From Treponema sp. (GTDB taxonomy: Bacteria; Spirochaetota; Spirochaetia; Treponematales; Breznakiellaceae), in the NCBI GenBank assembly GCA_031255285.1, contig JAIRSU010000093.1, positions 1 to 35,379 on the forward strand: 35,379 bases of DNA. The letters are read 5' to 3'. This document shows positions 26,568 to 28,009 of the stretch, piece after piece (the stretch's first letter is position 1; each line of letters starts with the position of its first letter). The position numbers and the translations under genes are program-made. Below the pieces are notes generated by a model. The model was not told the origin of the DNA. It saw nothing but the letters and a program-made list of their open reading frames with translations, and ran no database searches.

Positions 26568-26575
26568 CTAGGAAG

Positions 26576-26638
26576 AGAAGTGGAGTATTGCACTAGAGAA
26601 GTGGAGCATCGCACTAGAGAAATGGAGTATTGCACTAG
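26576..26638. repeat. 21-bp tandem repeat, three copies
   Basis: Three units at 26576-26596, 26597-26617 and 26618-26638 with core GTGGAGTATTGCACTAG and single-base differences; a fourth starts but fails at once. They lie directly upstream of the truncated RAYT fragment, possibly at the deletion boundary. No function is evident. Confidence 0.85.
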
Positions 26639-26722
26639 AGAGTATTCTTTCTACCTTTGATAACAGTACCTAATAACGCCTATTAGGAAGCCATAAAACA
26701 AACAAAATTTCTTTAAAAGAAC

Positions 26723-26750
26723 TTGCATTTTCTGAAAATTCCTTTAGAAT
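26723..26750 (+). promoter_or_regulatory. Predicted promoter of the GH18 gene
   Basis: TTGCAT (26723-26728), 16 bp, TAGAAT (26745-26750), followed by a short leader with GGAGG six bases before the ATG. Confidence 0.45.
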
Positions 26751-26767
26751 AGATAGCGGAGGCAATT

Positions 26768-28009
26768 ATGAAGAAAATAAGAATTTTTGTGCTGACGCTT
26801 GTATTGTTTGGGATTGTTCTTTTCCCGATTCAGGCAATCGGCAAAAAGGACGGGGGGGGGGGTGTCTTGCCGCCTTCACAACCTAAAGTTTCCAGCTACA
26901 TAAGGACATGGCCGCTGGGTCTTGGAGCTGAAATTGATAACGGCGAGCATTGGACCGCGGATATGGTTCACGGGGAATATCTTACCGATATTATCATCGC
27001 ATTCGCACTCATTGACCAGACCGACCTTTCCACTATTTACATCAAGGATATGGCTGACCAAGAGTCGGAGCTTACGCCAGGTCTAATCGTACCGGGGTTC
27101 AATGACTTGTGGGAACAAACGGCCGCGCTGAAGCTGAAATTTCCTGAGCTGAAGATCAATCTTTCAGTGGGCGGCTACAAGGCGGAATTCACCCACACGG
27201 CGGATGATCCGGATAAACGTGCAAAATTCATCGCCAATGTGTGTGAATGGCTGGAGGCTTTTGACCTTGACGGCGTTGATATTGATTGGGAGTATCCTGT
27301 TGGTCCCGATTGGGGCGCGGAAATTGAGACTCAACCCGCAGATCGTAATAATTACATCTCGCTTTTGAGCGAGATGCGTACGGCTCTCGACCAGTTAGGG
27401 CAAAACACCGGTAAGCGTTATGGGTTATCCGTGGCGGTACCGGCGAGTCCGTGGTTCTGCGAAAAGAACCGGGCCAAAGATGCGGCGAATATCGTCGATG
27501 TGTTCAAGCTTATGGCCTATGACTATTACGGCGGATGGAACAAGACCACGGGCCACCACGCTAACCTGCGTAAGGCGGACGGGGATCCGGAATGGGGCGG
27601 CTGGTCTACCGCTCAAGCGGTACGAGCTTTCCTGCAAGCGGGCGTTCCTTCCGAAAAAATCATCCTTGGCGTGGGCTTCTACGGGCATGCATGGGAAGGC
27701 GTGCCTGAAGGCGCGAGGCATGGACTGTTCCAGCAATACGAGAAGGTCTCTCCGCTTGACGGACTCGGCTGGGACAAAATTAAACCGCTTCTTGAACCTG
27801 ACTCTGGCTATACCCGGTATTGGGACGATACGGCTAAAGCACCCTACCTTTACAACGGCGACACGTTCATCAGCTACACGGATGCGGAAGCTATTGGTTA
27901 TATAACGGAATATGTGAAACAACTTAAATTGGGCGGCGTGTTTGTCTGGGAATATGTCCACGACATAAATGGCGAGTTGCTTCAGGCTTTATCTGAAAAA
28001 ATACAGTAA
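26768..28009 (+). CDS. Secreted glycoside hydrolase family 18 (chitinase-like)
   Basis: The 413-residue protein has a signal peptide (MKKIRIFVLTLVLFGIVLFPIQA) and a complete GH18 TIM barrel. The catalytic motif DGVDIDWE is at 168-175 with Glu175 as the acid. Substrate-assist and barrel motifs include LSVGGY, KLMAYDYYGGW and GVGFYGHAWE, with a closing Trp in GGVFVWEYVHD. GH18 enzymes cleave beta-1,4 GlcNAc polymers such as chitin or the glycan of glycoproteins and peptidoglycan; chitin from a host or protist is an inference. Codons 29-32, just after the signal peptide, lie in an uninterrupted run of 11 G, a likely phase-variable tract; the current length keeps the gene in frame. A strong terminator follows the stop. 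Confidence 0.93.
   Translation: MKKIRIFVLTLVLFGIVLFPIQAIGKKDGGGGVLPPSQPKVSSYIRTWPLGLGAEIDNGEHWTADMVHGEYLTDIIIAFALIDQTDLSTIYIKDMADQESELTPGLIVPGFNDLWEQTAALKLKFPELKINLSVGGYKAEFTHTADDPDKRAKFIANVCEWLEAFDLDGVDIDWEYPVGPDWGAEIETQPADRNNYISLLSEMRTALDQLGQNTGKRYGLSVAVPASPWFCEKNRAKDAANIVDVFKLMAYDYYGGWNKTTGHHANLRKADGDPEWGGWSTAQAVRAFLQAGVPSEKIILGVGFYGHAWEGVPEGARHGLFQQYEKVSPLDGLGWDKIKPLLEPDSGYTRYWDDTAKAPYLYNGDTFISYTDAEAIGYITEYVKQLKLGGVFVWEYVHDINGELLQALSEKIQ
26852..26862 (+). repeat. G11 homopolymer inside the GH18 gene
   Basis: Eleven consecutive G encode four glycines (codons 29-32) directly after the signal peptide. It is by far the longest G run I see in the window. Poly-G tracts of this size mutate by slippage and switch genes on and off in Treponema pallidum and other bacteria. 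A change of one or two bases would destroy the enzyme after residue 28. Confidence 0.9.

Follow-up and report, generated by a model that had tools for sequence, protein, structure and literature searches.

A GH18 gene with an intragenic G tract

The DNA analyzed here (35,379 nt of a Treponema sp. contig, referred to as the window) carries a GH18 gene whose neighbors encode leucyl-tRNA synthetase and aconitase (Table 1). Membership in GH18 is indicated by the PF00704 domain together with the DxxDxDxE motif. The closest solved relatives of the protein are chitinases, the nearest being 5gzu (E value, 2e-113), which we take to be Paenibacillus ChiW, and on the strength of this likeness we refer to the product as chitinase-like. 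The catalytic motif and the domain are common to the protein, ChiW, and the Bacillus chitinase 1itx over residues 119 to 402. Compared with these two enzymes, however, the present protein consists of a single domain preceded by a short N-terminal linker, and it is this linker that bears the G tract.

Table 1. Features of the GH18 locus (window coordinates)
Feature	Position	Strand	Remarks
Likely promoter, TTGCAT, 16 nt, TAGAAT	26723..26750	+	Largely kept in four orthologues; tract-free
Ribosome-binding site GGAGG	26758..26762	+	
GH18 chitinase-like gene, 413 aa	26768..28009	+	PF00704 at residues 67-396, E value 8e-68
Predicted signal peptide MKKIRIFVLTLVLFGIVLFPIQA, residues 1-23	26768..26836	+	Translation read by eye
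G11 homopolymer, codons 29-31 and two bases of codon 32 (GGG GGG GGG GGT)	26852..26862	+	Proposed slippage switch
Catalytic motif DGVDIDWE, residues 168-175	27269..27292	+	3' of the tract

The G11 tract is the sole run of at least 8 G in the window. It lies 84 nt inside the open reading frame (ORF), which is open at the present length; a recount of the run and the translation of the ORF agree with the preliminary description as to its position, codons, and frame. The N terminus of the protein reads MKKIRIFVLTLVLFGIVLFPIQA-IGKKD-GGGG-V and, read by eye, lacks a lipobox. Signal peptidase I probably cleaves after A23 (IQA), as judged from the sequence, so that the tract, previously placed right after the signal peptide, does lie behind it but five residues beyond the likely cleavage site. 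In a structure model of the protein (mean pLDDT, 59.5), residues 1 to 41 contain no ordered element and are of low confidence, which weakly suggests a disordered N-terminal linker.

When the reading frame was recomputed for each tract length, 8, 11, and 14 G gave the full protein, while 9, 10, 12, and 13 G led to a stop at 38 to 45 amino acids. Any gain or loss of Gs not divisible by three is thus predicted to remove the whole catalytic domain, in agreement with the all-or-none control proposed earlier. The tract accordingly combines an uninterrupted run above the usual contingency-locus threshold of 8 G/C with a position at which, given the predicted truncation, a change in length would alter expression. 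It does not lie beside or between -35 and -10 elements, as do the promoter tracts of the opc, porA, and TP0126 type. Neither a second tract nor a polysaccharide gene cluster adjoins the gene, and an Rfam search found no known RNA near it. Short tandem repeats of about 20 bp (e.g., AGTGGAGTATTGCACTAGAGA) occupy window positions 26575 to 26645. Similar arrays are found upstream of genes at loci L009, L018, and L039, and the unit in the window resembles the reverse complement of that at L018.

The tract in related GH18 genes

Four close orthologues, including that of the window, were compared, and the tract region is in frame in all four. The window copy has G11. An orthologue 83% identical to it (L096 in Gsp477_bin69, most likely the same genome as G218, locus L197) has G14, and that of the sister species G011 has G9, displaced within the linker; these homopolymer lengths are consensus values of metagenome-assembled genomes (MAGs) and may be off by one. 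In the second sister species, G010, the region reads GGAGGGGGAGGGGA, a run broken by A with the codons GGA GGG GGA GGG. Indels among the orthologues cluster at the tract, in contrast to the conserved signal peptide, catalytic domain, and promoter-like element. The preliminary description had called for a comparison of the tract in relatives and had held that interruptions there would speak against a switch: length differs at the same site, as is typical of contingency loci, and the run is interrupted in G010 alone among the orthologues compared.

More distant GH18 homologues (40 to 59% identical) lack a comparable intragenic tract, with the exception of that in genome G002, where G14 falls in a surface loop (FLS-G14-YTRYWDD) and breaks the frame. 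This is the only out-of-frame tract among the GH18 genes, and its site is not that of the tract in the window, suggesting that tracts have arisen at least twice in this enzyme family. Outside the four orthologues, only the G002 gene among the GH18 homologues of the family bears a comparable tract within the gene, so the tract is not conserved across this enzyme family. Poly-G runs that open the GH18 ORF of genome G277 look like a contig-end artifact. Another genus member (L083 in G005:C54) retains only a remnant of the GH18 gene from which the middle is missing, and some members of the genus therefore appear able to do without the enzyme.

Genome-wide repertoire of poly-G/C tracts

The source genome (assembly G000; 2.15 Mb, 131 contigs, 79% complete) contains 79 runs of at least 8 G/C, and the surroundings of all of them were taken. 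Their lengths are distributed as 20 runs of 8, 6 of 9, 6 of 10, 27 of 11, 14 of 12, and 2 of 13, in addition to four very long runs at contig ends. This distribution is bimodal and shows no decay, which argues for a separate class centered on 11 to 12; about 47 internal tracts of 10 to 13 make up the peak. By comparison, there are only 5 runs of at least 10 A in the whole genome. Among the 47 tracts, C precedes the G run in 43 and a purine lies ahead of the C position in 45. Long or clustered poly-G also occurs at the ends of contigs C95, C125, C28, C60, and C87 (L051, L062, L020, L035, and L049), probably as an artifact of two-color sequencing in the MAG.

Tracts are abundant in all 12 genomes of the genus (13 to 54 each with the pattern HCG10), and the sister species G010 and G011 hold sets similar to that of the source genome. 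Counts within the family range from 0 to 72 per genome, depending on the lineage, and genomes from other families of the order mostly have 0 to 5 HCG10 tracts. Loss of mismatch repair was considered as a cause and rejected, as MutS was found in the source genome and in every one of the 99 relatives examined, although some matches were partial.

Placement of the intergenic tracts

Read on the C strand, the noncoding tracts mostly consist of C10-13 followed by G[TC], an AT-rich and often TATA-like stretch, and then a codirectional gene. The AT content 10 to 19 nt past the tract is 74%, versus about 54% elsewhere, and 26 of 72 tracts have a TATAAT-like hexamer (at most 1 mismatch) that starts 8 to 19 nt beyond them, versus 13.1 (standard deviation, 3.3) in local shuffles. 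With G000, G010, and G011 pooled, the next gene is codirectional for 61 intergenic tracts and convergent for 16, compared with 2,642:1,913 at random intergenic positions drawn from the stretches fetched around tract loci; the median distance from tract to start codon in the same three genomes is 193 nt. Collectively, the AT-rich, TATAAT-like sequence and the codirectional genes suggest that the intergenic tracts adjoin promoters, although the predicted -35/-10 geometry is statistical only, and no peak was seen for a TTGACA -35 element at a fixed distance from the tracts. An Rfam search of the tract leaders returned, one tRNA aside, no riboswitch or known RNA.

Tract-linked genes and tract length at orthologous sites

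Genes linked to tracts in the source genome include a ManC-type mannose-1-phosphate guanylyltransferase, a 1,126-aa glycosyltransferase, another glycosyltransferase, a pectate lyase, Ig-like (Big_2 and Big_3) lipoproteins, a solute-binding lipoprotein, HU-like/DUF4469 paralogues, and a HAMP/cyclase protein. Signal peptides or surface proteins account for 26 of 86 tract-linked genes versus 48 of 223, an enrichment that is not significant (P = 0.07). The pectate-lyase-like protein (L070; PF00544) is secreted and has an in-frame G11 at position 1521, which makes it a second polysaccharide-degrading enzyme with a tract. The HU-like DNA-binding/DUF4469 proteins (L011, L025, L041, L047, and L048) are paralogous, and several have upstream a C11-13 tract and a leader with terminator-like hairpins.

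Length varies at several orthologous sites of the sister species: 12/13/12 at the ManC promoter, 11/13 at a glycosyltransferase, 12/13 at an OMP-like gene, and 11/13 at a lipoprotein; the solute-binding lipoprotein site has 12/12. Three near-identical promoter copies inside the source genome carry tracts of 11, 12, and 11. Tracts within coding regions are in frame in the GH18 gene, the pectate lyase (L070), a glycosyltransferase (L042), L050, L033, and L045, and out of frame in an Ig-like lipoprotein (L056) and in L128 and L122 of G010; thus, both states exist across genes. In L128 (G010:C22), a frameshift at a G14 tract divides the gene, which, read by eye, combines an HsdR-like N-terminal domain with a DNA methylase and is marked as a candidate phase-variable restriction-modification gene. 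L058, initially taken for a frame-broken gene, is better explained as a pair of neighboring genes that meet at the tract.

Comparison with known phase-variable loci

Poly-G tracts in the promoters of Treponema pallidum (tprE/G/J, TP0126, and tprL) vary in vivo, within an isolate, and affect transcription; the TP0126 tract lies between -35 and -10 and has been compared with the Neisseria porA and opc promoters, and transcription of tprL begins >200 nt ahead of the annotated start codon (PMC7864442). The tracts described here are of similar length and come from a related spirochete, and the tprL leader is comparable to our median tract-to-start distance. However, the tracts studied in T. pallidum are promoter tracts, whereas the GH18 tract is inside an ORF, and the present repertoire comprises dozens of tracts in an uncultivated gut spirochete, with secreted polysaccharide-degrading enzymes among the linked genes. 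In Neisseria meningitidis, homopolymers beside or between the promoter elements of opc (poly-C) and porA (poly-G) alter transcription (PMC7864442). Our intergenic tracts resemble these in that the C run is followed by AT-rich, TATA-like sequence, but here the promoter geometry is a statistical signal predicted from sequence, and the GH18 tract belongs to another type.

Both intragenic and upstream repeat switches are recorded in surveys of Neisseria (PMC5084427). The GH18 tract is closest to the intragenic loci of Neisseria, Campylobacter, and Helicobacter, which act on surface glycan and restriction-modification genes and in which a tract near the 5' end gives an all-or-none product. The targets overlap in glycosyltransferases, a methyltransferase fusion, and lipoproteins; they differ in that the target here is a secreted GH18 chitinase. 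The literature searched contained no phase-variable GH18, chitinase, or glycosidase and no phase variation in termite spirochetes, which is no proof of absence. The nearest named relatives of the source genome are Treponema MAGs with the isolate names Cd354, Cc175, and Gsp477, and these names, read together with PMC9137090, point to a termite-gut host for those MAGs.

A proposed translational switch and its alternatives

The G11 tract is genuine and belongs to a set of about 47 similar runs, many of them by promoters, and it is therefore probably an on/off switch. We consider it rather likely that the tract is a simple-sequence (translational) contingency locus within a genus-wide poly-G/C repertoire. 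Slipped-strand mispairing at replication would add or remove Gs. At 8, 11, or 14 G, the reading frame would run on from the signal peptide into the GH18 domain, and the enzyme would be exported; at 9, 10, 12, or 13 G, translation would end early and no enzyme would be made. Other intra-ORF tracts of the repertoire would be translational switches like that of GH18, and many of the promoter-side tracts are probable transcriptional switches. From these patterns we infer variation of the GH18 tract length within one population, changed export, and selection for switching. The phase-variable glycosidase proposed in the preliminary description is thus favored by the tract, its frame, the predicted truncation, the differing lengths in orthologues, the frame-broken G002 homologue, and the genome-wide class with its promoter placement and its in-frame and out-of-frame genes; the interrupted run of G010, the intact frame of all four orthologues, the rarity of tracts in other GH18 homologues, and the nonsignificant signal-peptide enrichment weigh against it.

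That intact frame also fits a constrained glycine linker, which is the main rival. The G11 would then merely encode a flexible linker kept in frame, its all-GGG spelling would be due to drift or slippage where the sequence tolerates it, and no adaptive switching would be involved. Each of the four close orthologues has three to four glycines here, encoded in G010 by a mixture of GGA and GGG codons, and the lack of an ordered element in residues 1 to 41 of the low-confidence structure model also agrees with a linker. The codon usage does not: only 18% of glycines are encoded by GGG, mixed codons spell the five remaining runs of at least 4 glycines in the complete long ORFs that were examined, and a G run of at least 11 appeared in only 119 of 20,000 (0.6%) synonymous redraws of the gene. 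Nor does a linker account for a length class of 11 or 12 that recurs across the genome, mostly in noncoding DNA, or for coding tracts that are out of frame. We regard this explanation as the less likely one, although it deserves serious weight.

Alternatively, the tracts could build up neutrally through a mutational bias of the lineage, such as poor repair of G slippage, with the frame changes unselected. An excess that is confined to G/C and lineage-wide would be expected from such a bias, and the conserved purine-C flank before the G run suggests a sequence-dependent process. Against it, MutS is present, and the tracts are oriented, placed by promoters, and kept at orthologous sites despite diverging flanks; with these observations a bias remains compatible as the origin of the tracts, but as a full explanation it appears improbable. 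It is least credible, to the point of being very nearly dismissed, that the G11 is a sequencing or assembly artifact of two-color chemistry. Runs of G18 to G34 at some contig ends (C95 and C125) do look artifactual, but the G11 is internal to a 35-kb contig, preserves the frame, and has equivalents in genomes assembled separately, and tract counts follow lineage. Overall, the switching reading is partly supported, and the single-gene proposal of the preliminary description is broadened here to a genome-wide class of tracts.

Implications for gut spirochetes

Homopolymer slippage is a mechanism of phase variation known chiefly from pathogens under immune pressure. We tentatively suggest, as a possibility that falls somewhat short of a firm proposal, that a genus of gut spirochetes possesses a repertoire of dozens of promoter-side and coding poly-G/C tracts, which may independently switch surface lipoproteins, glycan synthesis, a restriction-methylation fusion, and secreted polysaccharide-degrading enzymes (a GH18 chitinase and a pectate lyase). 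If so, a symbiont population would always be a mixture of cells with different digestive and surface outfits. It would, by chance switching, diversify its extracellular degradation of polysaccharides, perhaps as a division of labor or as a means of avoiding phages.
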